Source: Mesostigma viride
Taxonomy: Eukaryota; Streptophyta; Mesostigmatophyceae; Mesostigmatales; Mesostigmataceae
Direction of reading: 5' to 3'
DNA length: 64,000 nt
Assembly: GCA_009746045.1 (NCBI GenBank)
Contig: RPFO01000164.1
Coordinates: 660,712-724,711 of the forward strand
Below the pieces are notes generated by a model. It did no database searches. It saw only the letters and a list, made by a program, of their open reading frames with translations, and was not told the origin of the DNA. Positions 20,601-58,877 of this stretch are shown here, in pieces. Numbering within the stretch: position 1 is the stretch's first letter; each line of letters opens with the position of its first letter. The translations under genes and the position numbers were made by a program.

Positions 20601-23600
20601 AACAACTTGGGTCACAAACAATACAACAGGATCACAAAACAACTTGGGTCACAAACAATACAACAGGATCACAAAACAACTTGGGTCACAAACAATACAA
20701 CAGGATCACAAAACAACTTGGGTTACAAACAATACAACAGGATCACAAAACAACTTGGGCTACAAACAATACAACAGGATCACAAAACAACTTGGGCTAC
20801 AAACAATACAACAGGATCACAAAACAACTTGGGCTACAAACAATACAACAGGATCACAAAACAACTTGGGTTACAAACAATACAACAGGATCACAAAACA
20901 ACTTGGGCTACAAACAATACAACAGGATCACAAAACAACTTGGGCTACAAACAATACAACAGGATCACAAAACAACTTGGGTCACAAACAATACAACAGG
21001 ATCACAAAACAACTTGGGCTACAAACAATACAACAGGATCACAAAACAACTTGGGTTACAAACAATACAACAGGATCACAAAACAACTTGGGCTACAAAC
21101 AATACAACAGGATCACAAAACAACTTGGGTCACAAACAATACAACAGGATCACAAAACAACTTGGGCTACAAACAATACAACAGGATCACAAAACAACTT
21201 GGGTTACAAACAATACAACAGGATCACAAAACAACTTGGGCTACAAACAATACAACAGGATCACAAAACAACTTGGGCTACAAACAATACAACAGGATCA
21301 CAAAACAACTTGGGTTACAAACAATACAACAGGATCACAAAACAACTTGGGTTACAAACAATACAACAGGATCACAAAACAACTTGGGCTACAAACAATA
21401 CAACAGGATCACAAAACAACCAAACGGGGGTACCCACCTTCCGTGCTGAACCCGCCAAGCGCGACAAACGCATCTCGCCGAATCAGCGCGGTTGCGTCGC
21501 CGTAGCAGTCCTTGTACATTCCCACGCCGAGCGCCTGCCCCATCGGGATCCACCGCCCCAGCGCGGCTTTCGCGTCCAAAGGGAGCGCCTGGCCGGCAAA
21601 GTATTCGTTGCCGGGCGCTAGAATGTCCACCTCGGTCGCCAGGGCGGCGCGGACAAGGGTCGACACCAGGAAGGGCCGCGCCAGATTGTCGTCGTCCATA
21701 AACAGGAGGTAGTCCCCTTGCGCGCGCGCCGCGCCCGCGTTGCGTGCCGCGCCCAGAGAGGTGCCAGGTGGCAGTGTCAGCACCTGCCAGTGTGGCTTCC
21801 CGATGAAGTGCTGTGAAATAGTACCGTTAGGGAAAGGTGAAAAGAACGGATGGCGACAGGTGTACCCATCAGACCACACACAACAGGAAAGGTGCCCGAA
21901 TGGGTGGCAGTCATGATTAATACTTTTTACCACACTTTGGCCCGCCATCATAAGATCAATGAGACAAGCGCGCAGGCCTGGATACCTGGAAGATCCGGCC
22001 CATGGAAGCTTGAGCCTGCCGTCTCAAGATGCAGGGCCAGCCATCCGCGCCACCATCTGGCAAGCCTGGCACTGCAGCCTGCTGATAAATCCGTAAACGG
22101 CAAAGAGTCTAGAGTCCTGCCATGCATAAGCGCATATATCTGGCCTGCGCTGGTTGTCTCATTGATATGCTCCCTATAGGCTTCCACCCAGCATCTCTTT
22201 TTGCTCACGCCAGCCCATAGGATGTCACCTTGGTGTGAGCATGCTCCATCAAACGGGGCATCTCCACACAGTGTGAGTGTCAAAAACGACGGTGGCCGCC
22301 TGTCGTGTACAACACTATCATTTTGCAAATATGATGGGTTTCGTGTACCCCCCTGCGACGCGCTTGACAAGTGGCCGCTGAACGACTTGCCGCGTAATGC
22401 CAGCAAAGCAGACATGATGGGGCGCGTGGAACTCGTGCTTGACTTTGCATATGGCAGGCCTGCTGTCAGTCATGGTAGAACAGTAAGCATCAATACACGG
22501 GGGCTCTCTGACACCCTATCATCCAATCACCAAGTCCTTCCCGCCTTACCTTCGGCTGTGCTGTGTTATACTGTGTTGCGCTGTGTTGTACTGTGCTGTG
22601 TTGTACTGTGCTGTGATGTACTGTGCTGTGTTGTACTGTGCTGTGTTGTACTGTGATGTGTTGTACTGTGCTGTGTTGTACTGTGCTGTGTTGTACTGTG
22701 CTGTGTTGTACTGTGCTGTGTTGTACTGTGCTGTGTTGTACTGTGCTGTGTTGTACTGTGCTGTGTTGTACTGTGCTGTGTTGTACTGTGCTGTGTTGTA
22801 CTGTGCTGTGTTGTACTGTGTTGTGTTGTACTGTGCTGTGTTGTACTGTGCTGTGTTGTACTGTGCTGTGTTGTACTGTGCTGTGTTGTACTGTGCTGTG
22901 ATGTACTGTGCTGTGTTGTACTGTGCTGTGTTGTACTGTGCTGTGTTGTACTGTGCTGTGTTGTACTGTGCTGTGTTGTACTGTGCTGTGTTGTACTGTG
23001 CTGTGTTGTACTGTGCTGTGTTGTACTGTGCTGTGTTGTACTGTGCTGTGTTGTACTGTGCTGTGTTGTACTGTGCTGTGTTGTACTGTGCTGTGTTGTA
23101 CTGTGCTGTGTTGTACTGTGCTGTGTTGTACTGTGCTGTGTTGTACTGTGCTGTGTTGTACTGTGCTGTGTTGTACTGTGCTGTGTTGTACTGTGCTGTG
23201 TTGTACTGTGCTGTGATGTACTGTGCTGTGTTGTACTGTGCTGTGTTGTACTGTGCTGTGTTGTACTGTGTTGTGTTGTACTGTGCTGTGTTGTACTGTG
23301 CTGTGTTGTACTGTGCTGTGTTGTACTGTGCTGTGTTGTACTGTGCTGTGTTGTACTGTGCTGTGTTGTACTGTGCTGTGTTGTACTGTGCTGTGTTGTA
23401 CTGTGCTGTGTTGTACTGTGCTGTGTTGTACTGTGCTGTGTTGTACTGTGCTGTGTTATACTGTGTTGCGCTGTGTTGTACTGTGCTGTGTTGTACTGTG
23501 CTGTGTTGTACTGTGCTGTGTTGTACTGTGCTGTGTTGTACTGTGCTGTGTGTTACAGGGTCATGAAGCTACCATTTGTATGGCAGGGGTAAAGGAGTGG

Positions 23601-34675: not shown

Positions 34676-35182
34676 ATGTCACAGTCTAGGAGCCCATTCT
34701 GGGCTCCCCGTAATTCGCATTCTCGTTTTGATATGGGGATTTCCAACGTTGACAAATCACGCTTCTTGCATGACAGTTCGTTGGGTCTTGACGGGACTTG
34801 GGACAAAAGCTTGGATATGCATGCGTCCCAGCGGAGGACATCAGGCCCAAAGGTGACCACTTCTAGGGGTGCTCGACCGGTGTCGGCGCGCCCAATGTCC
34901 AGTTTGGCATCCAGTAAAGACAGCATAAACGAAGACTACCGCTTCCTACAAGAGTATCGCGTGGACAATAATATATCTATGGGCCGTGCAGTACGTCCGA
35001 AATCAGCTCCCCGTGAAAGGCTCCCTGGAATGCGAGCTAAGGCAGATCCTAAATTATCTTTGTCACAGATCATCGACGATCATCGAAGCCCCGACCATCG
35101 ATTAGAGAAGGTGAATCTGGCCTCGTTCAGGCTCGAAGACAGCATGGCGGGACGGAGGGAGCGTAGCAGCAGATCATTTCAG
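34676..35182 (+). CDS. exon 1 of an unrecognised Ser/Arg-rich protein
   Basis: The ATG sits in a good context (GCCGCC before it). 169 codons lead to a GTAAGC donor. The product is polar and rich in Ser, Arg and Pro, with RPVSARP and RPKSAPRERLPG motifs and no predicted membrane segment. RPKSAP-type motifs occur in some ciliary proteins, but that is not enough to assign a function. Exon 2 is proposed at 35799-35892; later exons are not found. Confidence 0.7.
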
Positions 35183-35436
35183 GTAAGCGGAGATGCGTGT
35201 CATGTTTTCGTGGTGGAGCCAGTCTGGGTGGCGGGTGTTTCGGTCGGGTTTCCAAAAGGTCTCCAGCCCGTTCCTTGGGACATGATCAGGTCAGGGCGCG
35301 CATTTGATCACCGGCGGCCATGAATCCAGTAATGGTGACGTGCGTTTTCCACCATCAGCCCTCGCTTTGTCAACAGAAAACAGAGAGCAAGACCATGTGA
35401 GCATGATTCTTTTTTCCTTTTTATTTCCTTTTTTTT

Positions 35437-35467
35437 TCGTGTGTGTGTGTGTGTGCGCGCGCGTGCG

Positions 35468-35523
<56 letters not shown>
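35437..35523 (+). repeat. GT microsatellite
   Basis: Interrupted GT run following a T-rich tract in the proposed intron 1 (35183-35798) of the plus-strand gene. Confidence 0.97.
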
Positions 35524-35525
<2 letters not shown>

Positions 35526-35798
35526 CGGCTGAGGGATCCTTCGCCATTGTCCACGGTGGTGAACTGGATGCTCTGCCACTGGATGGTGGATATCGAACGG
35601 TTGCACTTGAACAGCTGGGTGCTCGTGCCAGATCCCTTTCATACGTCCGCATGCACATTCCCCGCCGCCTTGGAAGTGCATCGAATGACAGATCTCGACC
35701 CAAGGAATGGGTGCCTTGCGAAGCCATGGAATGGTACTCGTTGATGATGTCCTCGGCGTGCCTTGGATGCTTGCCTCTTGCCCCCGTGGGTGCCACAG

Positions 35799-35892
35799 GT
35801 GGACCCTGTGCGGGTGCAGCTGCAGGAGCCCCTGCGCACGTCACGCTTCCAGCGGCCCCTCTATGAAGACTACAAGTACTACAAGTACTATG
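35799..35892 (+). CDS. exon 2 of the Ser/Arg-rich protein gene
   Basis: Phase 0 after a CCACAG acceptor, encoding VDPVRVQLQEPLRTSRFQ and YEDYKYYKYY, then a GTGAGG donor at 35893. The 94-nt length leaves a split codon, so at least one more exon is required. The next recognisable sequence is retroelement DNA. Confidence 0.6.
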
Positions 35893-36062
35893 GTGAGGTG
35901 GCGCAGATAATTATTACAACTGCGATGGTGAGTTGGCGTGTGCAAGTATACTAAGGTGGTTGTCTCCTCGATGTCAAGTGCTACGGTGAGTTGGCACGCG
36001 CAAATATCATGATTACTACGGTGAGCTGGCACGCACAAGTGTTACAAGCACCATGGTGGGTT
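35887..36062 (+). repeat. five-fold repeat of an exon end and splice donor
   Basis: TACTATGGTGAG-type donors occur at 35893, 35928, 35986, 36021 and 36056, a 35-bp period broken once by a 23-bp insertion that carries a GGTTGTCTCCTCG element tail. Flanking TTGGCRYGYRCAAGT is shared. Confidence 0.85.
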
Positions 36063-36099
36063 GACATGTGGGAGCTACCCGTATCATCCATAAGCATAC

Positions 36100-36188
36100 G
36101 GATTCATTTGTAGATCGCGTTTTCCGCGTTTTCCGCGGCCCGGCACTGAACGCAAAGGTTTTCACCTTTGCGGAGTGTCTGATCAGAA
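36100..36188 (+). repeat. hairpin-bearing repeat, copy 1
   Basis: About 89 bp nearly identical to 44540-44628. It contains a tandem CGCGTTTTC and an 8-bp perfect stem (CGCAAAGG, 6-nt loop, CCTTTGCG). Confidence 0.85.
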
Positions 36189-36234
36189 TATACGCTTGTT
36201 TCACCTTTATTCCAGACACCACAAGTCATGCTAT

Positions 36235-36568
36235 CAAGGAGACAACCAGCGCAGGCCAGAAATCGGGAGAATTCGGACCATGGTAGCTCGAGCCTGCCGT
36301 TATCTTGTCCGTGTTTTCGAGTCGTTCAGGATGATGAATATGAATGGAGATGGAAATGTGTAGCCTTGTGCATTGAAATTATGGCTGGCTTACGTGTAGA
36401 GCGACTAGATGACCTAGACGGTGGGGCCGGAAACAGCTTGCTTGATCAGGGCGTGTGTTTCGAGCCTAACTGGCCGGGAGTGTCTAGTGGTGAGCACCAT
36501 TGCTGCGATCGCTCTCCCACCATTTACGAGGAAATACCCGCAAATGGAAAACCACTGAAAAGGGCACT
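36235..36568 (-). mobile_element. 5'-truncated Penelope-like copy with 18-bp target duplication
   Basis: 334 bp matching the 3' end of the element at 42585 onward. It is flanked by the identical 18-bp sequence CACCACAAGTCATGCTAT at 36217-36234 and 36569-36586. Confidence 0.92.
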
Positions 36569-36599
36569 CACCACAAGTCATGCTATGGCCACCTGGTGA

Positions 36600-37355
36600 T
36601 GCCTCTCCTTTCTTCTGTGGAACATTATTTCCTCGTATCAAAGAGACAACCGTTTTCTCGTATGCCTGCAGAGGGCGTGGTTAATATCGACGGTTCCCCG
36701 CGGCCATAATACGCGGTGATAGGTTCGTCCGCTGTATCACAATATCAGCCATGCTGTGGCAAGGTGGTTGCTACACTCCTGGGCAAACGTTTTTGCACGT
36801 CCACAAGAAAGCCAGCCACAATGCTTGCGTCCATCGTTACCTTGTCGTAACCGCTGATTGGCTCTTGGCCTCCACACATGCGGTGCCTCTTCGGACGCAT
36901 GCTTCGTGGCTCACAGGGTTCGCGGGCCAGGGGGCGCGCACGAGCTGGGCGTACAACCCGGGCAAACCGCCGGTGCTTGGGGACACCTGTTTTCCACAGG
37001 CAACGTGCTACTTCCACCGTCGGCACTGCCATGAGGATGACTTGTGACATCTGAAATATGCTATGTGTGAGCCAAAGCAGTGACTGGGAGCAGCAAACTT
37101 GCGAGGGGGATGCGATCATAGCGCAAGTGAGTGTGAGGGGAACACAGGGGGGGGCGGCGCGCACAAGTGAGCACTACAGTTACACAACAGTCACAAGTTA
37201 GCACTACACTGAGTCCCCTTCTGTGGGTCCATGTGTGACGCACTAGGTCTGTTGATGAAACCACGTGGGGATCATCTGTGATGGACTTCAGGTTTTCAAT
37301 GCCTCCCTGAAGTTTGCTTAGGAAGTGAGAGCAGCAATCTCTGAATCTTTTGGAC
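36600..37355. other. no gene recognised
   Basis: Sequence between retroelement copies. A minus-strand frame at 37164-36745 is open for 139 codons but resembles nothing known. Confidence 0.45.
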
Positions 37356-37360
37356 AAACT

Positions 37361-37373
37361 GGTTGTCTCCTTG
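37361..37373 (+). mobile_element. 13-bp Penelope-like tail insertion
   Basis: GGTTGTCTCCTTG flanked by AAACT on both sides (37356-37360, 37374-37378). Confidence 0.6.
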
Positions 37374-37539
37374 AAACTAGGTCATGGCCCTGTAGAATTG
37401 TAAACAGCCAACTGCATGTTGAAAGTGCAGGAATGCTTCATTTAGACATGTCCTCATGCTTTGTGACTGCCGCGGCGGCGGCGGAAGAATGAGGAACATG
37501 GGTAGACAGCCCTGCATGAACTGCACACATGGGATACAT

Positions 37540-37549
37540 CAAGGAGACA
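37540..37549 (-). mobile_element. 10-bp Penelope-like tail insertion
   Basis: CAAGGAGACA flanked by ACAT on both sides. Short enough that chance is possible. Confidence 0.35.
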
Positions 37550-37881
37550 ACATGCCCAGAGAGCGATTCTACGTTGATTTCATTCATTCATGCACGAGCC
37601 TCCGTTGGGAGAGTCACAGGGTACAAAATTTTGGGTAGATACCAGGGTTGGAGGAACTGGGTTTTGGGGTGGCAGGCCGGATGGACCCGGAATGGAACAA
37701 GGGCTAACCCGCTGGAATCGCGGAACGGAACTGGCACTGTCTGACCGCTGATCCTAGCTCGAGGCATGCAATACATCAAGGAGACAATGTTGTTTAGATA
37801 GATGTTGTAGGTAGCTGATGTATGATAGATTAGACCGGTAGGACTGTTTGCACCCATTCATCCATCCATCGGGGTTAATGC

Positions 37882-37933
37882 TCCGTGACTCCCCAACGGG
37901 AGCACGAGTCTAAGTAATTAATTAATTTATTAA
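37882..37933 (+). repeat. retroelement 3' hairpin and TTAA tail
   Basis: GTGCTCC ... GGAGCAC hairpin and TTAA repeats, the same ending as at 1710-1766 and 42183-42240. Confidence 0.75.
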
Positions 37934-38345
37934 GGAGACAATCAGCGCATGCAATTAAGAAATCGGGAGAATCGGGACCATGGTAGCTCAAGCCCAGGCT
38001 GTTATCAAGGAGACATGCAACCAGCGCTATCTTGAATTTTCGCGTTTTTGAGTCGTTCATGCAGGATGATGAATATGAATTTGGCCGGAGATGGAAATGT
38101 GTAGCCTAGTTCGTCGAAATTATGGCAGGCTTCCGTGAAGAGCTAGCGACTAGATGATCGACCTAGATGGCTGTGGGGCCAGAAGCAGCTTGCTTGAGCA
38201 GGGCGTGTGTTTCGAGCCTAACTTGCCAGGATCGAGTGCATGTCTAGTGCATGAGCACCGTTGCTGCGATCGCTCTCCCACCATTTACGAGGAAATACCC
38301 GCAAACGGAAAACCACTGTTCAAAAAGGTCTAGCAAGTCAGTCAT
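37933..38345 (-). mobile_element. diverged Penelope-like 3'-end copy with 4-bp insertions
   Basis: Aligns end to end with 36235-36568 but carries at least six extra 4-bp blocks (ATGC, CTAG, ATCG, CATG types). A nested 21-bp tail copy at 38007-38027 is flanked by TATC. Confidence 0.8.
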
Positions 38346-38389
38346 TACTTTGACTAGCCATGCCATGGTTCAATTGGATGCCACGAGAA

Positions 38390-40021
38390 GCCACGAGCCA
38401 CGAGCCACGAGGTAGCCATGGCTGACGGCGGAGCTCATAACTTTCACGTTTGGGCACCGAATTTAGTCGTGAACATCACAATCGCTTCGTCTTTCTAAGA
38501 CGCACATGCTGATATAATTTTCCAACGCTATTACGCAATATATGACGAGCAAACGCTCCTCGACGCAACGCAGCAATGAAAATACGTCTGCAGCTCCGGC
38601 TGCAGCTTCGCCCTCAGGCCCGGCAGGCAGCCGGGTGACACTAGTCGCGCACTGGTCGGGTCGCCCAGCACCCTCCTGGGCTTCCTGCCTCGCCTGCAGC
38701 CTCCCCCGAGCCCAAACGCAGCCGCCCAACTGAACCTATAGCTGGTCCGAGTAAGACTTAGACGTTGATGAGTTATTTTCCACCTTCGACGTCAACAGAC
38801 CCGGCTATTTAATTCGACAGGCCACACATCCGGATACTGTACATAGCTCCTGTTTTATGGGTCGTATGCCTCCCTTCTTGACCTGTGCCAGCGCCTCCAA
38901 CGCCACAAATGCTTCCGCAGCCAGTCTGACGGCCAGTTTCAGCTCCGCGCAGCTGACCTGTCTGGCTGGTCGCGACCGCGCCTTCAGCTTGCCGCCCTCT
39001 TTTCCATCCTTAAGCGCGGTTCTTCCGCGGAACTCTGGCAACCCGTCCCCTTGGGCGAATTCCCCTCCTCCACCACCTCGCACAGCACGTGACGCCCCTC
39101 GCTTGCGAAATGCAAGCTTTGGGTCGTAAGCTGGCTGCTGAGCTTCCCCACCATCCCCGGCACCCGGCCACCGCCACCGCCACCGCCACCGCCACACTCC
39201 TCGCCTCCCCCCCCCCCCCCCCCCCTCCGCCTCCACCGACTCCATCACCGCCCAGCTCCGTGACATTGACCAGCGCCAATGCAATCGCCATCGAGGTCCT
39301 GCAGAACACCGCAGGCCTCACCGGCGCCCAGGCGGTGAAGGACATTGCCGCCAAGCCAGCCCCGGCTGGCCTGGCCGGTGATGCTCCTCCCATCCCGACC
39401 TGGGCGGACATGCTTAAGCAGCACGCCACCTCCACCACCTCCGCCGTCGCAGCACAGCTCGAGCTACAGAAGCTCGACCTCCGCGAGGACGGGCCGAGCT
39501 CGCCAAGCGCAGCCTCAACGCCATGCTCAAGAACTTCGACATGGTGGAAGGTGAGAATTCTGAGAAGCTTGCACGTGCGTTTGAGAGCAAAATCCTTTAT
39601 CGCATGGGCCTTCTAGGTGAGATTAAGCTGACCGCCCACCGCCTCCGGCCCCGCACGCGGGGTAAGGCAGGGGCGCCCCCGCTTCTTCTGATCTTTGCAT
39701 GAGAGCCCATCGGACAAGATTTCGTTTCTCAGACGCCGCAAGCGGCTCGAGAACACTCCCTTCACCGTGGATCGACGACGACTTGACCCTGGCGCAGCAA
39801 CAACGGCGACGGGAGCTATGGCCGACCTACCTCCGGCCAGCTCCGGCAGACCAAGGCGGGCCAGCCGGTGTACTGGAAGGGGGCGGCCATCTACGTCGGC
39901 CACAAGCCCTGGCACGCGACCCCCTCGACCACCGCGGCCCCGGCCAGCGACTCCAGACGCCCCAGCCTAGGGGAATACAGCAGCAGTAGTGTAGAATAGT
40001 TAGACCGTGGCCTTGTACATG
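38390..40021 (+). mobile_element. ORF1-only retroelement copy
   Basis: Shares its 5' end (CCACGAGGTAGCCATGGCTG) and leader with the copies at 45797 and 61380. The ORF1-like frame starts with ATG at 38542 but is broken by several frameshifts. Recognisable parts are a Pro/Ala-rich region, GLTGAQAVKDIAAKPAPAGLAG-like coding at 39320-39370, and the C-terminal block near 39780-39930. It stops at 40021, where a reverse-oriented LINE tail begins. Confidence 0.75.
38542..39960 (+). pseudogene. broken ORF1-like gene
   Basis: Related to 255-1358 and to the copies at 45931 and 61520. Frames change repeatedly; the A/P-rich middle contains a C18-type run at 39211-39228 prone to slippage. Confidence 0.7.
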
Positions 40022-41158
40022 CCCGCCTACTATTAAAAATTAAATTAAATTATAACATGACTCCGTCATGGGAGATCATGTAGCACATATTCCCGTGGAT
40101 GGATGGAGGGGGGGGCAAAGCCGCGAAACCGAACTAATCTAACTCTAAGCTAATCTAATCTAGAAATTAATTAATGAATGAATAGACACGTGACTGCGTC
40201 ACGTGAGCATAAGTCCTCAGTGGGAGGGGAACATGGGATGGAATGGATGGTATAAGCTATCTAGGTCCTAGTTACAGGGGTGTGGGCACCGCGGCCCGAA
40301 TCGCTATGAATGCCATACTTGGTCACACGCGGAGCCCCCACAGGCTTGGGGGTGGTCTCCTTCATCACTACTTGCCATCTATCCTTGCGCACCATCTGCC
40401 TCCATATTACAGACAAACCAGGAGGCTGCGGCCGGGGGTGAGCCCGTCACGTCTAGTGTAGCACATGTCCATGCCGAGTCTATCACGAAAAGTCCACGGG
40501 TGGCGGCCCTGCCGCGCGCGGCCGGGGGCACGCCAGGTGAGGACATATCGCCCAGGCTGGGCGGGCTTGGTGCCAGCTAGTCTATCTGATGTATCTACCT
40601 GATCTGTGCGGGCCAGGTGCCCGGCTAGGCCCAGGCGCCTGTGCCTAATAATGTGGGAAACATAGGGCAAATCAGCGTACAAATCCTCATTACTAATGTG
40701 CAAACCAAAGGGGATGTTAAGGGCCTGGCGCAGCATCTTGGTGACGGCGCCGTCGAGTCGTTGCTCCAGCTCCTGCGTCAGTGCCCACGTCTCGGCGCCG
40801 TAGGTCAGGATCGTCAGAATGACGACCTTGAAGAGGTCACGCTTGACGATCCGGGGTAGGGCGGGGTTGCTCCACCAGCGGCGGTGGTCATGGAGGTGCG
40901 CCCACGCCATGCCGATCCGTGTCGTCATGTCGTCCTCGCAGTCGGGAAGCCAACTGCCGAGCAGCTTGAAGCGGCCTGAAGGAGGGTAGTTGACCTCCGC
41001 ATCGTCTAAGAGGCGGAGTGTGGGTGGGGGCCCTGCCATGCCGAGGGCCAGGGCCTCCGTTTTGGGGCTGATTTCTAGACCAACCGCCCGAGCCTCGAGC
41101 GCCAGGCAGTCCAGCCAAAGTTGGGCAGACTCCGGCTTCTCGATGAGCGTGAAAACCT
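40022..41158 (-). mobile_element. 5'-truncated LINE
   Basis: Minus-strand order is ORF2 C-terminal part (41158-40407), a 3' UTR containing a CACGTGAC/GTCACGTG palindrome (about 40187-40206), then a hairpin (CTCCCATGACGGAG) and an ATTTA-type tail at 40022-40055. Confidence 0.8.
40407..41158 (-). pseudogene. LINE ORF2 C-terminal part (end of RT and thumb)
   Basis: An open frame of 250 codons truncated at its 5' end. It shows GLEISPKTEALALG, FKLLGSWLPD, LTYGAETWAL and RRLGLAGHLARTD, the well-known order after the catalytic RT motifs in non-LTR elements. The catalytic domain itself is missing. Confidence 0.88.
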
Positions 41159-41180
41159 AATCTAGAAAACCCTACTTATT

Positions 41181-41310
41181 CTACTCAGCAAAGCGCCCCT
41201 TCCGCTTGGGGGGAGGGGGCTTGCCCACAGGGGCGGGCGTATGAGCCTGGACAATGGTTTTCCACCTCCTCTTGTCCTGCATAGCAGTCCAAGCAAGAGA
41301 GAGGGCCTAC
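41181..41310 (-). pseudogene. extreme C-terminus of a LINE ORF2
   Basis: Encodes LAWTAMQDKRRWKTIV and a Pro/Lys-rich end with TAG at 41183-41181. The related LLWTAMQKKPRW end lies at 45328-45460. Confidence 0.7.
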
Positions 41311-41765
41311 TATACAGGAACTATACCAGCTGAGGCCTAGCATTTTTAGTCATGTACATGTGTCCGCTACCATGGTCCGGAATCCTTCCGATTTCTGGCC
41401 TGCGCTGGTTGTCTCCTTGATGTGTGCCTATGATGAGCCACACTCCAGATGATGCCTAGCTTTATTTCATTATGCAGTGCCCATGCAGGGAGTCAACTCT
41501 CTGCTGAGAAGCCATACCCTAGCTCTTGTTGTATAGCTATGCTGATCTTCCCCCCCATGACAGTCTCCCCCTTAAAGCTGGGCATAGCTTGATAGATCAT
41601 GGGGCCGTGCAGGTGTCCTGGGGCACCTAGCTAGTAGAGCAAGGGTCGTTTACATTCCCACCCTTGCAGGAAGTAGCTTAGAATGTATTATAGGCGCTCG
41701 TATGCCCCCTCTGTGCCGGGCTATCAGGCTATGTGCTACAGATACTCCCAACGGGGTCAGTATGC
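41311..41765 (+). mobile_element. 3' UTR fragment of the ORF1-only element
   Basis: Matches 62960-63350 and 48170-48560 through the CTAGCTTTATTT, CCCCCCATGACAG and ACTCCCAACGG blocks. It is interrupted at 41364-41419 by a Penelope-like tail. Confidence 0.8.
41364..41419 (+). mobile_element. 56-bp Penelope-like tail insertion with visible empty site
   Basis: The insertion ends GGTTGTCTCCTTG and is flanked by ATGTGT (41358-41363 and 41420-41425). The uninterrupted site is present at 63005-63010 in the homologous element. Confidence 0.92.
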
Positions 41766-41769
41766 CGCC

Positions 41770-41880
41770 CCCCCCGCAGGTCTGCGACCAGCTCAGCCTG
41801 GCTGGCACCTCCTGACGTGGGCCGGGCCCAGTGATGTTAGACGCCGCAAGGCCCGCACCTTCAAAGAACAGCTAGTGTAG
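41770..41880 (+). pseudogene. LINE ORF2 fragment
   Basis: Encodes AQPGWHLLTWAGP ... TFKEQLV with a stop. It matches the QPGRYVLTW region of the minus-strand LINE at 40500-40560. Confidence 0.65.
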
Positions 41881-42182
41881 AGGACATGGGGGGCCTAGGC
41901 CTCTCCGTGATTTGGACGAAGATGATGGACAAGGCCAAGTGGGCCCAGCTAGGTCATAGAGGACAACGAGCCCCCCCCCTGTCACAGTCCCACGGTGGGG
42001 AAGCGCCCACGTGTGCAAACCCGTGCCCGGAGGCACGCCCGACAGGTCCCCTAGGGCAGCGTGAGGCTGTCTACATAGATGTTGTAGTTAGAATGCTGTT
42101 AGATAGATGTCGTAGGTAGCGGATGTAGATAGCTTAGACCGGCAGGACTGTTTGCACCCATCCATCCATCCATCCATCGGGG

Positions 42183-42240
42183 TTAGTGCTCCGTGACTCC
42201 CCAAGGGGAGCACGAGACTAATTAATTAATTAATTAACGG
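42183..42240 (+). repeat. retroelement 3' hairpin and TTAA tail
   Basis: Same GTGCTCC hairpin and TTAA run as at 1710-1766. Confidence 0.75.
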
Positions 42241-42393
42241 GGTTATGTTCCTACTTATTTTTAATTAACTAATTAATGGTTCCATTGCCATTCCCCCACC
42301 TGCAGGCCAGAAGTAGCCCCGAATTTATTAAAGGCCATATCAAGGATCTAGACGTACGTACAACCAGCGCAGGCCATACATATATCAAGGAGA

Positions 42394-42567
42394 CAACCAG
42401 CGCAGGCCAGAAATCGGGAGAATCCGGACCATGGTAGCTCGAGCCTGCCGTTATCTTGTCCGCGTGTTCGAGTCGTTCAGGAGGATGAAGATGAATGGTG
42501 ATGGAAATGTGTATCCTTGTGCATTGAAATTATGGCTGGCTTACGTGTAGAGCGACTAGATGACCTA
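42394..42567 (-). mobile_element. Penelope-like tail copy with 16-bp target duplication
   Basis: 174 bp of the element 3' end. CGCAGGCCATACATAT flanks it at both sides (about 42376-42391 and 42568-42583), directly abutting the larger copy that starts at 42585. A further damaged tail begins near 42346. Confidence 0.8.
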
Positions 42568-43141
42568 GCGCAGGCCATACATATCAAAGAGACAACCAGC
42601 GCAGGCCAGAAATCGGGAGAATCCGGACCATGGTAGCTCGAGCCTGCCGTTATCTTTTCCGCGTTTTCGAGTCGTTCAGGATGATGAAGATGAATGGTGA
42701 TGGAAATGTGTATCCTTGTGCATTGAAATTATGGCTGGCTTACGTGTGGAGCGACTAGATGACCTAGACGGTGGGGCCGGAAACAGCATGCTTGATCAGG
42801 GCGTGTGTTTCTAGCCTAGCTGGCCGGGAGTGTCTAGTGGTGAGCACCAGTTGCTGCGATCGCTCTCCCACCATTTACGAGGAAATACCCGCAAATGGAA
42901 AACCACTGAAAAGGTCTAGCTAGTCAGTCATCACGTTAGCCATGCCATGATTCCAAACGTCCAAGAACTGCACACGGTGCAAAGGCAAAAAGCCGGAGGA
43001 CAGCACTTTCAAATGTGCGGCGGGAACCAAAAGCCCGCGGATGCCAGAAAACATCGTGTTGCGGCAGCGACGCGACGATGTGGACAACGAATCCAGTGCC
43101 AAGCTCGGAACGGCCGCAAAGGAGATCTGGCATCACAGGGT

Positions 43142-44503
43142 TCAGATGTGCGGAGATACTATGCGATCCAGCCGGTCCACGACCTGTTTGTAGAGCTTGT
43201 GCCAAGGGGCAGCACCGAACAGATGTGGGTGACGTTGCAAAAAACATCGGACTTGACGGAGCATAATGGCTCGGTCATAGTCTTTGACCAATAAACGCTG
43301 CAAGAGTTCAACAAGAGTCGTGATGAAATCAACACGATAAGAACAAAGACGGGAAAAACGATGTAACTGAGAAAGAACAACACCATATTTTGCTGTGTGG
43401 GAAAGGAGACTGTGAATATCGGGGTAACGAATAAAAGGAATTTGCTGGTATTTAGGATCCTTGCGCTTATCATAGACAGCCGTACGCCAGCCCTTCTTGT
43501 TATGGGTAATGTTAAGATCGAGGTAATTGCAATGAGTATCCTCCGACGTGAGCTTTAATGTGAGGGACGCTTGCGGGTAGATGCCAGGCAGACCAGCGGT
43601 GATATACAAATGGGTTGCGAAATCAGGGTTGTCGAAAGCGATGACATCATCAATGTATCGACATGTATGGATAAAACGCCTGATGAGAACATCATCGTTT
43701 GAGGCAATGAGATTCTCCATGAATGCAAGCTCATAAGTGTATAGATAGAGGTTTGCAAGGAGCCCGGCACAGTTAGTGCCCATAGGGATGCCGATAGCTT
43801 GTTGGTATACATTGCCCGCAAAACAGATGAAGGTGTTATCAACAAGATAAGAGATCCAATGGACAAGGTCAGCCTTCGTGATAATATAATTATAACCATC
43901 CCGCACGATAGCACCTGCCGCGATCCCTGAGAGCCACGTTGCCGTGGGCTTGGTCTGAGAAACACGCACGTGCAGGTGGTTGCGCCCGTGAGGCCTACGT
44001 GCATACAGACGAGTAAGGAGGCTATCTAAACGAGCTTTCAAATCGTGCAAATCTAGTGTGGTATATAGAGTGGTGAAATCATAGGTGGCTATGGGCATAG
44101 GTATACGTTTCTCTGCTGCTGTCTTAGAACGGCTAAGGGCGGCAAGGCGTAGGCGTACTTGGGCTGAGTCTATGACGATCCAACTACCAGCGCATTCATA
44201 CCCGGCATTCGACAGCACCTCCACCCATAATGCATTGGCTCCGGGGAGAAGAGCATTCAAAGCATGGCAGATGAGTTTCGAGAGAGGCATCAGTGGGGCT
44301 GAATGCGACGCAGCAATGGTGCGCAAAGCAACAGGAGTTTTGTGCAGCTTAAGAGTGAGATACAGATATGGGAACGTAGTGGTGGTGGCGCGTCGCTGCC
44401 GCTTAAGGAATGCCCGAGCAAAAATGTTTTGGCTGTGCAGAAAAGCCCGATGAGCAGCAGTGATACTGGCGGTGGAATGTGCACGCTGAACATAGGTAGG
44501 CAA
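43142..44503 (-). CDS. Penelope-like reverse transcriptase
   Basis: A 453-codon open frame whose first codon is TTG, not ATG, so the true start is upstream, lost or non-canonical. RT motifs appear in order: LTLKLHKTP, motif A YDFTTLYTTLDLHDL, motif B GIPMGTNCAGLLANLYLY, motif C with the catalytic RYIDDVIAF, and LDLNITHNKKGW. A thumb-like segment ends in DRAIMLRQVRCFL. The GIPMGTNCA plus YIDD combination fits Penelope-like RTs better than LINE or LTR types. In that family RT primes at a target nick and shows similarity to telomerase RT. The frame is intact over the RT core. Confidence 0.85.
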   Translation of the reverse strand: MPTYVQRAHSTASITAAHRAFLHSQNIFARAFLKRQRRATTTTFPYLYLTLKLHKTPVALRTIAASHSAPLMPLSKLICHALNALLPGANALWVEVLSNAGYECAGSWIVIDSAQVRLRLAALSRSKTAAEKRIPMPIATYDFTTLYTTLDLHDLKARLDSLLTRLYARRPHGRNHLHVRVSQTKPTATWLSGIAAGAIVRDGYNYIITKADLVHWISYLVDNTFICFAGNVYQQAIGIPMGTNCAGLLANLYLYTYELAFMENLIASNDDVLIRRFIHTCRYIDDVIAFDNPDFATHLYITAGLPGIYPQASLTLKLTSEDTHCNYLDLNITHNKKGWRTAVYDKRKDPKYQQIPFIRYPDIHSLLSHTAKYGVVLSQLHRFSRLCSYRVDFITTLVELLQRLLVKDYDRAIMLRQVRCFLQRHPHLFGAAPWHKLYKQVVDRLDRIVSPHI

Positions 44504-44539
44504 AATTGGTGCGAGAGGTCCCCAGTTCGATTCCGGTCG

Positions 44540-44628
44540 GATTCATTTGCAGATCGCGTTTTCCGCGTTTTCCGCGGCCCGGCACTGAACGCAAAGGTTT
44601 TCACCTTTGCGGAGTGTCTGATCAGAAT
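44540..44628 (+). repeat. hairpin-bearing repeat, copy 2
   Basis: Near-identical to 36100-36188. The perfect stem is 44590-44597 with 44604-44611. Just upstream, 44524-44534 reads like a pol III B box (GTTCGATTCC). Confidence 0.85.
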
Positions 44629-45003
44629 AGGTAGGGCTGGACGCCAACTCGTGTTGCAAAGTAGCAAGGTAGTGCTTCTTGCATATGAAAGCAAAGTTGT
44701 TGGCACTCTTGCATATGCCCCTTCGATCTCAGGGCTATGTGCCACATGTACTCCCAACGGAGTCGTGTTCCTAATTAGTTAATTAATGAATGGTTCCAAA
44801 CGTCCAAGAACTGCATACGGTGCAAAGGCAAAAATCCTGAGGACATCTCTCTCAAATGTGCGGTGGAAACCAAAAGCCCACGTATGCCAGAAAACATGAT
44901 GTTACTGTACATAGCGACACGACGGTGGGGACAACGAATCCCAGGTGCCAAGCTCGGATCGACGGTCGCAAACGGATGTTCTGGCATCACAGGGTTCATC
45001 GAT

Positions 45004-45614
45004 AAAAAAAAATTAAATTATAACATGCCTCCGTTGGGAGATCATTAATTAATTAATTAATAAGCACGTGACTGCGTCACGTGGGTGCCAATACACTATA
45101 CAGAGTAAAGGAACCTTCAACCCTATATACACAGCGAGAAGGATCGTGGGAGGGCGCCCTAGCTTCTCTCACTGCCGCAGGTGGGCAGGCCACAGAGCGC
45201 TCTCTCCACGGCATGGGAGATCATGTAGCACATATTCCTTGATGGGTGGTGGTGGAGAGAGCCGCGTAATCTGACTATCCTAACGCTAATCTATCTCAGT
45301 CTAGAAAAATCCTAACTGCCCTACTCATCAAAACGCCTCCGCCTCTTGGGGGGAGGTGGCTTGCCCACAGGGTTGGGCGTGTGAGCCCAAGTGACAAATC
45401 TTCTGCCACCGCGGCTTTTTCTGCATGGCAGTCCAAAGAAGGGAGAGAGAGTGGATGCGGTATTCAAACTGGGCTGGGACCAGTAGGTCATCCAGCAACA
45501 TCTGGACGTAGTTCATGACATGTTTCCCTACCCTTTTGGGAATGCCCTTGGGGCCATGCCAGGTCAGAATGTGCCGCCCTGGCTGGCCAAGCCGCTGGGG
45601 GCCTGCCAGACCAA
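45004..45614 (-). mobile_element. 5'-truncated LINE with 11-bp target duplication
   Basis: A/T-rich tail at 45004-45022, 3' UTR, and the ORF2 C-terminus at 45614-45328 (QPGRHILTW, LLWTAMQKKPRW, stop). Itself interrupted at 45046-45213. Confidence 0.88.
45046..45213 (-). mobile_element. short interspersed element, copy C, with 11-bp target duplication
   Basis: 168 bp inserted in the LINE 3' UTR hairpin, flanked by TGGGAGATCAT (45035-45045 and 45214-45224). TTAA tail at the left end, then GCACGTGACTGCGTCACGTG, a perfect 8-bp-arm palindrome. Confidence 0.88.
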
Positions 45615-45930
45615 GGTTCATCGATGCGCGCCGGAGATACTTCGCGATCCAGCTGGTCCACAAGCTGTTTGTAGAGCTTATGCCAAGGGGCCGCATCGAA
45701 CTGACAGATGTGGGTGACGTTGAAAAAAACGAACCGGATCAACTTGATATCCAGAGCATAATGTATCGATCAGCAACATGTAACACAAAATTCCGGCCAC
45801 GAGGTAGCCATGGCTGTCGGAGCTCATAACTTTCACGTTTGAGCACCGAATTTAGCCGTGAATATCACTATCGCTTCGTCTTTCTAAGACGCACATGCTG
45901 ATATAATTTTCCGAATCTAAAACGCAATAT

Positions 45931-47276
45931 ATGGCGCACAAACGCGCCTCGACGCAACGCAGCCTGGCGGCTGCGCTCGGCAATGAAAATTCTGCAGCTC
46001 AGGCTGCAGCTTCGCCTTCAGGTCCGGCAGGCGGCGATGACACTAGTCGTGCACTGGTGGTCGTCCAGCAACCCCCCGGGCTTAACGCCTCGCCATCTGC
46101 ATCGCCTGACCCCAAGCGCACCCGCCCAGCCGACGACACAGGAGGGTCTTCACGCCCAGAACCGAGCTTTCGGCCCCGGCCTTTCAAGGTCGCAGATTAC
46201 GACTGGGCCACCATTTCTCCGACCGATGCTCTGCGCTGCATCTTCTTCGGGGATTACGCTTCGCTTTACGACCTGTGCCTCCATTTCCACTCCATCAATC
46301 GCCTCCTCGCCCCGGACGGCAGCCGCTGGGCCAACATCTACGGGCTGTCCGGCTGCGTCCGCCCCCATCTCCAGCACGCCATCCTCAACTCCCTTCTCCA
46401 GCGCTCTGACGGCGAGATCTGGGCTCCACCCCTTTCCGTCCCCACCCTCCGCTCCATCCTCACGGAAGCCTTTCAGCAGCACGTGACCCCCTTGCTGCCG
46501 ACATAGCAGCAATCGGCGGCACGCTGACTGCTGAACTTCCTCACATTTCCACCGCCGCCGCCTCCACCTCCACGGCCATTTCCGCCTCCACTGCCGACAT
46601 CAAAGCCCAGCTCCTCGACCTCGACCAACGCCTTCAAGCCACCGCCAACGCCCTTGAGAGCTTGCATGACACCGCCGGCCTCACCGCCCAGGCGGTGAAG
46701 GACATCGCCGCCCAGCCGGCGCCTGCTGGCTCGGCCGGCGATGCTCCCTCCACCTGGGCGGACTTGCTTAAGCAGCACACCACCTCCACCACCTCCACCA
46801 TCTCGGCACAACTCAAGCAACAAGCCCTCGACCTTCGCGAGGAAGCCGACATCGCCCGGCGCAGCCACAATGTCATCGTCAAGCACTTCGACCAGCAGGC
46901 AGGTGAGACCTCCACGAGCCTTCTTGAGGCATTTAAGCGCGCCATTCTTGCCCCCATGTTACTCACTGGTGAGCTGGACATGTCGGCTGTCCGCCTCCCC
47001 CGCGCGCGGGGGAAGGCTGGCCCGGCCCCCGTGCTCCTCACCTTTAAGTACATGGCGGACAAGCTGGCGTTCCTTAAATGCCGCAAGAAGCTCTCGGAGA
47101 CTCGCTTCACGCTGGACGACGACTTGACCCTGGCCCAGCAACAACGGCGACGCGAGCTATGGCCGGCCTACCTTCAGCTCCGGCAGAGCGCAAGGGGGAA
47201 GCCGGTATACTGGAGGGGGGCGGTCATCCACGTTGACCACAAGCCCTGGCAGCCCCCTCCTGCCACCTCAGACTAG
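45931..47276 (+). pseudogene. ORF1-like gene with one frameshift
   Basis: 45931-46506 encodes an N-terminal part (191 codons, with FKVADYDWATISPTDALR). It ends at a stop reached through a frameshift. 46662-47276 encodes the C-terminal part: coiled coil, RRM-like segment with VLLTFKYMADKLAFL and the LTLAQQQRRRELWPAYLQLRQ block. Undamaged, the protein would be about 450 aa. Confidence 0.78.
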
Positions 47277-47289
47277 GAATATATATACC

Positions 47290-48147
47290 AAATTCCTTTT
47301 ATTCGTTACCCCGATATTCACAGTCTCCTTTCCCACACAGCAAAATATGGTGTTGTTCTTTCTCAGTTACATCGTTTTTCCCGTCTTTGTTCTTATCGTG
47401 TTGATTTCATCACGACTCTTGTTGAACTCTTGCAGCGTTTATTGGTCAAAGACTATGACCGAGCCATTATGCTCCGTCAAGTCCGATGTTTTTTGCAACG
47501 TCACCCACATCTGTTCGGTGCTGCCCCTTGGCACAAGCTCTACAAACAGGTCGTGGACCGGCTGGATCGCATAGTATCTCCGCACATCTGAACCCTGTGA
47601 TGCCAGATCTCCTTTGCGGCCGTTCCGAGCTTGGCACTGGATTCGTTGTCCACATCGTCGCGTCGCTGCCGCAACACGATGTTTTCTGGCATCCGCGGGC
47701 TTTTGGTTCCCGCCGCACATTTGAAAGTGCTGTCCTCCGGCTTTTTGCCTTTGCACCGTGTGCAGTTCTTGGACGTTTGGAATCATGGCATGGCTAACGT
47801 GATGACTGACTAGCTAGACCTTTTCAGTGGTTTTCCATTTGCGGGTATTTCCTCGTAAATGGTGGGAGAGCGATCGCAGCAATGGTGCTCACCACTAGAC
47901 ACTCCCGGCCAGTTAGGCTAGAAACACACGCCCTGATCAAGCATGCTGTTTCCGGCCCCACCGTCTAGGTCATCTAGTCGCTCCACACGTAAGCCAGCCA
48001 TAATTTCAATGCACAAGGATACACATTTCCATCACCATTCATCTTCATCATCCTGAACGACTCGAAAACGCGGAAAAGATAACGGCAGGCTCGAGCTACC
48101 ATGGTCCGGATTCTCCCGATTTCTGGCCTGCGCTGGTTGTCTCTTTG
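47290..48147 (+). mobile_element. 5'-truncated Penelope-like copy, near-identical to 42585-43443
   Basis: 858 bp covering the RT C-terminus and 3' UTR, with ATACC on both sides (47285-47289, 48148-48152). With 42585-43443 it forms an inverted repeat. The two differ by one small indel and very few substitutions, so this insertion is recent. Confidence 0.93.
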
Positions 48148-48601
48148 ATACCAGTAGTGTAGATTAGTAAGGCTTAGCCTAGCATGTGGCCCACGCGCAT
48201 GTGCGCCCATAATGGCCCCCATGGATGATGCCTTCAACATTTAGCCATGCTTTGTCTATAATGGGACCCCCATGGATGTTGCATTAAGAACTTAGCCATG
48301 CTATGCCATGCAGAGAGATGCTCTCTGTCGAGAAGCCATGCCCTAGCCCTTGCATAGCCATGATGATCTTCCTCCCCCGTGCCAGGATCCCCTTAGCTGG
48401 GTTGAACCTGAGACAGCATGGTGGTGCCGGTGCCCTTGCGGCACCTAGAGCAAGTGTTGCTTACATTCCCACCCTTGCATGAAGTAGCCTAGGATGTATT
48501 TAAAGCCATATGCCCCTTCTCAGGGATATGTGCTACATTGACTCCCAACGGAGTGATGTTGATAATTAATTAATGTATCGATCGGTCGTATTAAGCTAGT
48601 G

Positions 48602-48636
48602 TTTAGTATTTCTGGCCTGCGCTGGTTGTCTCCTTG
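48602..48636 (+). mobile_element. 35-bp Penelope-like tail insertion with 14-bp target duplication
   Basis: Insert ends GGTTGTCTCCTTG. GTATTAAGCTAGTG flanks it at 48588-48601 and 48637-48650. Confidence 0.92.
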
Positions 48637-48685
48637 GTATTAAGCTAGTGAGACAACTGTGCCTGGACGCATGGCAATCCGGATT

Positions 48686-48792
48686 ACGCATAGTCTTTGA
48701 CCAACAAACGATGCAAGAGTTCAACAAGCTAGTCTTACTGAAATCCATCGACACGATAACTAAGAACAAAGACTAGAAAAACGATACCACTG
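48686..48792 (-). pseudogene. Penelope-like RT fragment with 4-bp insertions
   Basis: Matches 43275-43375 (RT C-terminal coding) but with extra 4-bp blocks that destroy frame. Confidence 0.7.
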
Positions 48793-48802
48793 ACAGCAAT
48801 AT

Positions 48803-48815
48803 CAAGGAGACAACC
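48803..48815 (-). mobile_element. 13-bp Penelope-like tail insertion with 8-bp target duplication
   Basis: CAAGGAGACAACC between two copies of AGCAATAT (48795-48802, 48816-48823). Confidence 0.8.
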
Positions 48816-48854
48816 AGCAATATATTTCAGTTTTGCATACATGCATGCATAGCC

Positions 48855-49400
48855 ATGCAGGTGGCACACTGCCCCGCCATGTGGACCCGTGAGCTAGCTG
48901 TGATGCCGCACATGGCCCGGCCCCTACCTCTCCTCACGGCGGGGTTGCCACCTGCTCATCGATGTCTCCGTGGCTCGGCCGCGCTCTCCGGTCGCCACAT
49001 CCTCCGGGCGGCTGTGGATGCCGGCGCTGCTGCCGCTGTGGCTGAGCGCGACAAGTTTGCCTTCTACGGCACTGCGGGGCCCCACCGGGGCATCCTCTTT
49101 GTCCTTGAGGAGTTCGGGGCCATGGGCCCCAAGACAGCGCGGAGATTTTCCACGCGTGCTACCAGCGCCGTGAAGACCGCCTCGACATCGAGGGTCAGAC
49201 CGCCCCGTGGTCTGCCGGCCGCACGTGGTCCTCGTACTGGTGGCAGCGCCTGTCACTCGCCCTCACTCGCACCGTGGCTGATGTGTTATTCCGCCGCACC
49301 CGGGCCGATATCGACTTTGTCGCGACCCATGCGCCGTCTAGATCCCTCCCAGGCCTGCATGGTGCCGGTGGGCCGGCACTGCGATGCTGCTGCGTGTCAT
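48855..49400 (+). pseudogene. retroelement polyprotein C-terminal fragment
   Basis: Frames covering this stretch read DKFAFYGTAGPHRGILFVLEEFG, split by one frameshift near 49140 from WWQRLSLALTRTVADVLF. The order (Tyr-rich strand, then FxxLExFGxxG, then W-R-LS-AL-R) is typical of the region after RT in retroelement polyproteins of plants and algae. RT itself is absent. Confidence 0.55.
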
Positions 49401-49409
49401 AGTTTTGTG

Positions 49410-50507
49410 ATGTACATCTATAGTTAGTTGTACCTTGTGCAGCTGGCATGATCCTTGGATGTCAATTAATTGGATGTCCATGTCAGATTACTATTCATTT
49501 CTTCAGGGTTCTTATTCTTTTCGGGGTTTTCCTTATGTTGCATGCCAATCTCACCTCCGTAATTGAAATATAGTTTTCAATGGCTAATTAAATTATGTGA
49601 GACTACAATTATATCAAGTGAGACAAGTGATTTTCATGTCGCTTAACGCCGGCTACTGGATGAGCCTGGCATGCTACGTGTTTCAGCACGTACTGCCATG
49701 TTGAGGCCTGCGCTGGTTGTCTCCTTGATGTTGAGGCCGGCAAAGTGTAATGATATCAATGAGACAACCTGCGCAGGCAAGGCAGTGAAGGCCTGAAATC
49801 GAGATCCGGAACAGTTCAGAACCATGGAAGCATGATTTAGTATTTATTTTAAAATGTTTTGTTATGACGAAGGTGCGATAAGGCGTGGCGCAGACAGGAG
49901 GTCCACCCCGTGAGTACAGCATGTTTCAAAAGGATGACGTAAACATACTCCACAACATAGGACCCCCTAGTCAGCTTTCAATTTATGCAGCACCAGCTCT
50001 ACCCACAAAAAGGTTTCTCAACTGGACTGGGGAGATGTTTCTTTAGCTTAACGTGGGCCAACTGATTCCAGAGCTGCTTGTGTCTCTGCTGCAAGTTCAT
50101 TCCCCCTCACTGATAAATTGCACGGGGCTGCCAACAATTTATTCAGTTGCCTTGGAAACGGTGCATGGTCGGCCATACATGCCAATATGCCCACAACTTC
50201 CACGAGGCGGTTTACAGGGCTGGACAAGAGTGCATGCGCCTTACAAGAATACCTGGCAAGGCTTGCAAACATGATTCCACAAGGCAAGGCCCATTCGCCA
50301 TGCACAAGTCCATGGGATGACCACATCCAAGCCTTGGAACACATGGCCCTAGAAAGTGCATCCATAAAGAAGAGGTCATAATATCACTAAGCACAGCTCT
50401 TATTGTAAATAAAAAATGAATGCCCACCATATGCCTAACCTCAGAACAGGGGTCACCAAAGACCCCGCACCTGCCGCTGCATCCCACCCACATGCAGACA
50501 ACCCCCT
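49410..50507. other. AT-rich spacer and 3' flank of asparagine synthetase
   Basis: Contains two Penelope-like tails (49709-49727 and 49755-49830) and, nearer 50500, the likely 3' UTR of the minus-strand synthetase. No gene recognised. Confidence 0.6.
49709..49727 (+). mobile_element. 19-bp Penelope-like tail insertion with 11-bp target duplication
   Basis: Insert TGCGCTGGTTGTCTCCTTG between two copies of ATGTTGAGGCC (49698-49708, 49728-49738). Confidence 0.92.

Positions 50508-58877
<8,370 letters not shown>

Follow-up and report, generated by a model that had tools for sequence, protein, structure and literature searches.

The DNA analysed here, a stretch of 64,000 nucleotides (nt) of the streptophyte Mesostigma viride (contig RPFO01000164.1, positions 660,712 to 724,711; referred to below as the window), holds copies of one Penelope-like retroelement that have the common 3' end GGTTGTCTCYTTG. 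Inserts with this end span from 7 nt to hundreds of base pairs (bp), with one of ~2 kb, and more than half of those sampled are no longer than 60 bp. We consider it highly probable that they are made by target-primed reverse transcription from a fixed position on the element RNA, usually at ATA targets, which often ends within tens of nucleotides and leaves a 5' end that is joined by microhomology or filler. Aborted target-primed reverse transcription had been proposed in a first-pass annotation of the window, and the target site duplications (TSDs), the fixed end and the empty sites described below support it. If this is true, thousands of insertions of 7-60 bp, each the trace of one start by the reverse transcriptase (RT), are too short to be detected by repeat annotation.

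The shared 3' end across the genome

The assembly searched comprised 439.9 Mb in 2,243 contigs, and the results concern this one genome and one element. The published assembly of Mesostigma viride NIES-296 is 441.8 Mb, and a figure legend of that report names Penelope-like elements among the repeat classes (PMC6947507); a second strain, CCAC 1140, has been sequenced as well (PMC7027972). In the window the motif GTCTCYTTG occurs 14 times against 1.35 expected, a count reached in none of 100 shuffles. Throughout the genome the 13-mer tail GGTTGTCTCCTTG was found 8,517 times and its control 10 times.

For a closer view of the inserts we used 72 distinct sites, 12 from the window with GGTTGTCTC(C/T/A)TTG and 60 from loci on contig C1 (30 loci around the first 30 of the 100 listed 13-mer matches, and 20 stretches around later ones). 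Together the window and the sampled C1 loci made up the ~354 kb used for local tests. Sites with an insert of at most 60 bp were classed as short (40 sites) and those above 60 bp as long (32 sites), where short does not mean a proven insertion, as a worn longer copy would be counted too. On C1 (n = 60) the inserts measured at most 20 bp at 18 sites, 21-60 bp at 14, 61-150 bp at five, 151-450 bp at 18 and more than 450 bp at five. Inserts of at most 60 bp were thus found at 32 of the 60 sampled sites, and the shortest are undercounted, since the sampling demanded the 13-mer tail. Among sites of the CCTTG type the fraction was 29/56, which extrapolates over the 8,517 tails to ~4,400 inserts no longer than 60 bp genome-wide. 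At that number it is plausible that, as the first-pass annotation suggested, such inserts are a major hidden source of small insertions, but the top single insertion length in element copies is 4 bp, and those insertions are mostly palindromic and of another kind (see the last section).

The first target base 3' of the tail is A in 71 of the 72 sites, the second is T in 65 and the third A in 60, with ATA as the next three bases at 52 sites. The predicted RNA fold of the element 3' end, on the other side of the junction, had a stability not above expectation (z 0.43).

Target duplications, empty sites and junctions

The copies and candidate inserts in the window are as follows, in order of position.

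22140..22164, plus strand: 25-bp tail piece with the variant GTCTCATTG; TSD ATAT of 4 bp, alone within chance; outside the range covered by the first-pass annotation
36235..36568, minus strand: 5'-truncated copy of 334 bp; TSD of 18 bp at 36217-36234 and 36569-36586
36639..36656, minus strand: short insert of 18 bp (13 bp of tail and 5 bp of filler); TSD CTCGTAT at 36632-36638 and 36657-36663
37361..37373, plus strand: candidate 13-bp insert; TSD AAACT, 5 bp, alone within chance (9.3%)
37540..37549, minus strand: candidate 10-bp insert; TSD of 4 bp, alone within chance (27%)
38006..38027, minus strand: 22-bp insert nested in an older element copy (37926-38371); weak TSD of 3-4 bp; contains a 4-bp palindromic insertion
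41364..41419, plus strand: 56-bp insert; TSD ATGTGT at 41358-41363 and 41420-41425; empty paralogue at 62960-63089
42386..42568, minus strand: copy of ~183 bp in the 3' flank of the neighbouring copy 42585..44711; TSD score 14
42585..44711, minus strand: longest window copy, ~2.1 kb, 5'-truncated near 44711; possible weak TSD ATATG at 44712-44716
47291..48147, plus strand: 857-bp copy; TSD ATACCA at 47285-47290 and 48148-48153
48602..48636, plus strand: 35-bp insert; TSD GTATTAAGCTAGTG, 14 bp, at 48588-48601 and 48637-48650
48803..48814, minus strand: 12-bp insert; TSD of 9 bp at 48794-48802 and 48815-48823
49709..49727, plus strand: 19-bp insert; TSD ATGTTGAGGCC, 11 bp, at 49698-49708 and 49728-49738

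Ten of these had been listed in the first-pass annotation, and all ten were found in their places. Remeasurement kept six of its pairs of insert and TSD length in bp (334/18, 56/6, 35/14, 19/11, 13/5 and 10/4) and changed four (858/5 to 857/6, 174/16 to ~183 with TSD score 14, 21/4 to 22/3-4, and 13/8 to 12/9); the short insert at 36639 had been missed. With the tandem repeats of the window masked, repeats of at least 4, 5, 6, 7, 9, 11 and 14 bp occur by chance at 27, 9.3, 3.2, 1.2, 0.26, 0.09 and 0.03% of positions, respectively. Seven of the ten copies exceed this level singly (inserts of 857, 334, ~183, 56, 35, 19 and 12 bp), 857/6 and 56/6 only modestly, and the nested 22-bp insert is accepted in spite of its weak TSD because four other element copies show the empty site. 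The duplications claimed for the 13/5 and 10/4 cases are within chance when taken alone.

Considered as sets, the inserts leave little room for coincidence. When 14 short or doubtful window sites were pooled, the mean repeat length was 5.5 bp against 3.04, a value never matched in 100,000 resamples of the masked null. A null over all unmasked window positions, in which tandem arrays dominate, gave no excess and was superseded by the masked, permuted and shuffled nulls. With permuted flanks as the null, an exact TSD of at least 7 bp was present at 14/40 short sites (null mean 0.30, maximum 2 in 300 permutations) and at 10/32 long sites (null 0.28). When mismatches were allowed, TSDs were found at 10/21 sites with inserts of at most 20 bp, 6/19 with 21-60 bp and 14/32 with more than 60 bp (null 1.4%). 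Short inserts therefore have TSD support about as well as long ones (16/40 versus 14/32).

The tail also emerges from scans that ignore it. Among 5,532 spaced repeats in the ~354 kb, 14 spacers end with at least nine tail bases (shuffled tails: mean 0.02, maximum 2 in 300 sets), and three spacers consist of CTCCTTG alone, their flanking repeats measuring 8, 11 and 14 bp and each beginning with ATA. A second scan, over 1,628 spaced repeats, had TCCTTG as the top spacer end (13 occurrences, enriched 14.6-fold); higher fold values were reached by some others at counts of 4-8, several of them from tandem arrays or one repeat family.

Genome-wide pattern matches were judged, beside the 72 sites, from three lists of matches. 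The search for tail plus repeat that the first-pass annotation had suggested, as the pattern ATAT, 3-33 bases and CTCCTTGATAT (CTCCTTG followed by ATAT), returned 1,480 matches, against three for the reversed pattern and 235 for the mismatched left word ATAG. Since ATAT is 1.46 times as frequent as ATAG in the sampled ~354 kb, and overlapping starts inflate the 1,480 (19 of 100 among the matches listed), we put the excess due to matching flanks at about three- to fourfold; part of the 235 ATAG matches hold ATATAG repeats. From the 100 ATAT matches listed, 79 sites were retained after 19 overlapping ones and two identical in letters had been dropped. Repeats of at least 7 bp flank 39 of these 79 listed sites (permuted mean 1.97, maximum 7), and repeats of at least 12 bp flank 14, which occurred in none of 500 permutations.

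The first-pass annotation had staked its proposal on flanking repeats being commoner at the tail than at other 13-mers, and in the 354 kb they are: 9 of 59 GGTTGTCTCCTTG sites (15.3%) have flanking repeats of 7 bp or more, against 0.6% on average for 493 frequent 13-mers. Two 13-mers outrank the tail, and both belong to an internal direct repeat of the element. Their source lies at 47868-47890, where the direct repeat AATGGTG surrounds a stretch with the palindrome GCGATCGC. All in all, five set-wise tests agree and confirm that tail inserts with flanking repeats exceed chance.

Empty sites point in the same direction. Of the short inserts, 21 that have a repeat of 5 bp or more were compared with the ~354 kb, and four of them have a clear empty paralogue with a single copy of the repeat. 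For example, the 56-bp insert at 41364-41419 is missing from the 95% identical sequence at window positions 62960-63089 and from four other places (the overlapping loci L010-L012 counted as one). The others are a 15-bp insert in locus L033, empty at 63027-63195 in the window (92%) and elsewhere; a 39-bp insert in L040; and a 15-bp insert in L010/L012, whose empty counterparts, at several loci, align with small gaps. Two more empty-site matches were too weak for use.

Junctions were compared in 53 inserts with exact repeats of at least 7 bp, pooled from two lists that have at least one site (C1:1137973) in common; in this selected set the exact TSDs measure 7-20 bp. The 5' junction is free of filler in 26 of the 53, and at 14 of these 26 target and element have 2-4 bases in common, where about one in 16 would be expected. 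The 19-bp insert at 49709..49727, for example, has 4 bp of such microhomology. Exact 7-nt CTCCTTG inserts (L013, L020, L049, C2:506207) are recurrent and exact 8- or 9-nt ones scarce, in small numbers; a preferred early stop after 7 nt is possible. Below 7 nt, a search with the CCTTG pattern returned 386 matches against 12 for its control. Inspection by eye of the 100 matches listed found a 6-nt insert flanked by an 11-bp repeat (C777:375215), another 6-nt case that is tandem-like and occurs at two places, and a 5-nt case whose 7-bp repeat (C777:1211028) may be coincidental; 5-nt cases within TA runs were left uncounted. We do not claim an insert class below 7 nt.

Mechanism and alternative explanations

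The inserts display the features of a target-primed retroelement, namely a constant 3' end with 5' truncation, TSDs of variable length, and empty sites with one copy of the repeat. In the mechanism that we propose, an endonuclease would make a staggered cut at an AT-rich site, the nick would serve for priming, and reverse transcription would begin at a fixed internal position on the element RNA. The enzyme would very often drop off or be displaced within tens of nucleotides, the end of the short complementary DNA (cDNA) would anneal through a few bases to the opposite target strand or be joined with filler, and fill-in would then create the target duplication. Poor processivity at the start and quick capture by repair are both candidates for the early stop. 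This mechanism is in line with what is reported for a vertebrate Penelope-like enzyme, namely cleavage of both strands, a preference for AT-rich DNA and initiation at an internal position of its RNA (PMC11167929).

Several observations weigh against this mechanism. Filler of 1-25 bases is present at 27 of the 53 junctions, part of which may be mutated TSD. An exact 7-bp TSD is missing at 26 of the 40 short sites, and likewise at 22 of the 32 long ones. No endonuclease domain was found in the RT frame of 453 amino acids (aa) in the window, which lies in a copy that is 5'-truncated near 44711, and Rfam (E up to 5) gave no hammerhead in 35000-51000, where the copies lack the 5' part.

A fixed 3' end with variable short lengths would likewise result if the enzyme used short templates, 3' pieces left by processing or degradation of the element RNA, and copied them to their ends; the recurring exact 7-nt inserts could then mark a discrete RNA end. 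However, the inserts range in length from 7 nt up to hundreds of bp, and the only tested enzyme is reported to require a long RNA (the first 172 nt of the open reading frame) for insertion (PMC11167929). We consider short templates unlikely, and the other explanations more so.

The microhomology and filler at the 5' junctions look like end joining, as would be seen if free cDNA pieces or element oligonucleotides were trapped at random double-strand breaks. Such capture by repair predicts neither one common end in one orientation, nor targets that start with A at 71 of 72 sites, nor TSDs of up to 20 bp that are as frequent as in long copies, and it is very improbable as the source of the inserts. 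Still less credible is decay, in which the short pieces would be longer copies stripped of their 5' part by deletion. Some of the 26 short sites without an exact 7-bp TSD may indeed be worn longer copies, but clean TSDs abut 7-20 bp of tail, for which deletions would have to stop repeatedly at exactly the upstream repeat, and deletions are rare in element copies (26, against 182 insertions). Short tail matches next to coincidental repeats may account for single cases such as 13/5 and 10/4 in the window, but all five set-wise tests contradict chance as a general explanation, to which we give almost no credence.

The element, its relatives and palindromic insertions

The longest copy contains the RT reading frame:

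43142..44503, minus strand: RT reading frame, 453 aa; predicted fold nearest telomerase

The frame is 99% identical to the protein Mesvir1/15504 over 84% of its length. Pfam gave a trace of RVT_1 (E 0.16), and sequence comparison with solved structures found no close one. A predicted model of the frame (predicted local distance difference test score, pLDDT, 81.5) had telomerase as all of its best ten PDB matches in Foldseek, with template modelling (TM) scores of 0.40-0.53 by query length, which supports, by fold only, membership of the RT in a telomerase-related lineage. The alignment of the frame with a homologue, P0017, covers 367 positions at 29%; P0017 carries a GIY-YIG match N-terminal to the RT, at 21.1 bits just under the Pfam cutoff of 22.6. 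This layout, GIY-YIG ahead of the RT, is the permuted order of the Chlamys and Naiad groups. The Penelope-like identity named in the first-pass annotation thus gains from the telomerase-type fold, while its GIY-YIG endonuclease was not seen in the truncated window copy and stays below the cutoff in the homologue. The 857-bp copy is 99.8% identical to 42585-43444 over 863 bp. A 92-bp repeat occurs at 36099-36190 and 44538-44629 (98.9% identical), and the latter of the two interrupts the RT frame of the longest element copy in its upstream part. An 18-mer searched in viral contigs matched one contig, which was taken as chance.

The element resembles the endonuclease-bearing Penelope and Poseidon elements of animals in the predicted telomerase-type RT fold, 5' truncation, variable TSDs and, under the proposed mechanism, AT-rich cuts and a fixed start, and P0017 shares with Penelope-like elements its GIY-YIG match (below cutoff) ahead of the RT. 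For Penelope-like elements of Adineta, TSD examples of 9 and 10 bp are reported (PMC3846280). The Mesostigma copies differ in that more than half of those sampled are at most 60 bp, down to 7 nt, and in that endonuclease, pseudo-long terminal repeats and hammerhead were not seen in the truncated copies of the window. In the literature searched, judged by titles and the openings of abstracts, we found no description of Penelope-like micro-insertions, nor of palindromic 4-bp insertions.

A fixed 3' end, TSDs and 5' truncation are also features of 5'-truncated LINE-1 insertions, for which a median TSD of 13 bp is reported (PMC12016303); microhomology at LINE 5' junctions has been mentioned too (PMC3846280). 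In contrast to LINE-1, the Mesostigma element is without a poly(A) tail. One LINE-1 mapping method is described as detecting inserts down to 150 bp (PMC6407172), and the literature consulted gave no figure for LINE-1 inserts of 7-60 bp. Telomerase, the nearest solved fold to the predicted RT, would be alike in its short synthesis from a fixed template position, whereas the element inserts at internal AT-rich sites with TSDs, makes long copies too and adds no telomeric repeat.

Should the proposed mechanism be true, the micro-inserts would provide numbers on the start of the enzyme, its stopping, the target cut and the second junction, all of them steps on which very little biochemistry is available for Penelope-like elements. 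Activity gauged from maskable copies alone could then miss about half of the events, which would otherwise be called plain indels.

Another kind of small insertion was met in a gap survey of 67 alignments of element copies to one window copy, some from overlapping loci, with each event counted once. The commonest single length among the 182 insertions is 4 bp (64 insertions); of these 64, 35 form palindromes, where 8.1% would be expected, and 46 duplicate 2 bp of flanking sequence, where the expectation is 15.6%. In copies diverged by 2-10%, with duplicate alignments removed, there were 48 four-bp insertions, no four-bp deletions and 512 substitutions, and in copies diverged by more than 10% there were 11 four-bp insertions and four four-bp deletions. 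By form, where XY is a dinucleotide and rc its reverse complement, 34 of 61 four-bp insertions are XY-rc(XY)-XY, 12 are other XY-NN-XY and 15 are neither. Within the window such insertions are seen when 37926-38371 is compared with 36232-36563, 42582-42953 and 47780-48150. A smaller first survey gave 9/21.

Other repeats of the window and loci L002-L051 have 120 four-bp gaps against 18 five-bp ones, with 63 of the 120 palindromic (null 9.4%); one-bp gaps outnumber them, at 210. The median enrichment of 6-mers is 2.0 for XY-rc(XY)-XY, 1.27 for other XY-NN-XY and 0.93 for all 6-mers, with ACGTAC and GTACGT enriched only 1.14. As a mutation signature, repeats in this genome accumulate 4-bp palindromic insertions with a 2-bp duplication, XY to XY-rc(XY)-XY. 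This form would result from a break with a two-base stagger, its fill-in and two bases derived from a hairpin, although we have no mechanism that we trust.

A more speculative extension, which we put forward tentatively and think rather less likely than its opposite, is that the micro-insertion is the normal outcome of this element and not a failure. Thousands of AT-rich sites would then each receive 7 to ~60 nt from a telomerase-type enzyme with a template-limited start, a stop at 7 nt perhaps being favoured, and long copies would be the minority; together with the separate palindromic 4-bp process, this would make the genome grow by insertion.

As for other features of the window, a tRNA gene search of it found none. 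Another repeat family has three copies (45796-47276, 38393-40032 and 61371-62961) with long open frames, and those of the frames that were compared with Pfam had no match. The frame at 51310-54312, 1000 aa long, contains an asparagine synthase domain and overlaps large tandem arrays at 51758-51962 and 52013-53461. Three plus-strand frames, each longer than 3,100 aa, overlap at 11727-21621, all of them open across the same 9 kb, which is probably a tandem-repeat array.

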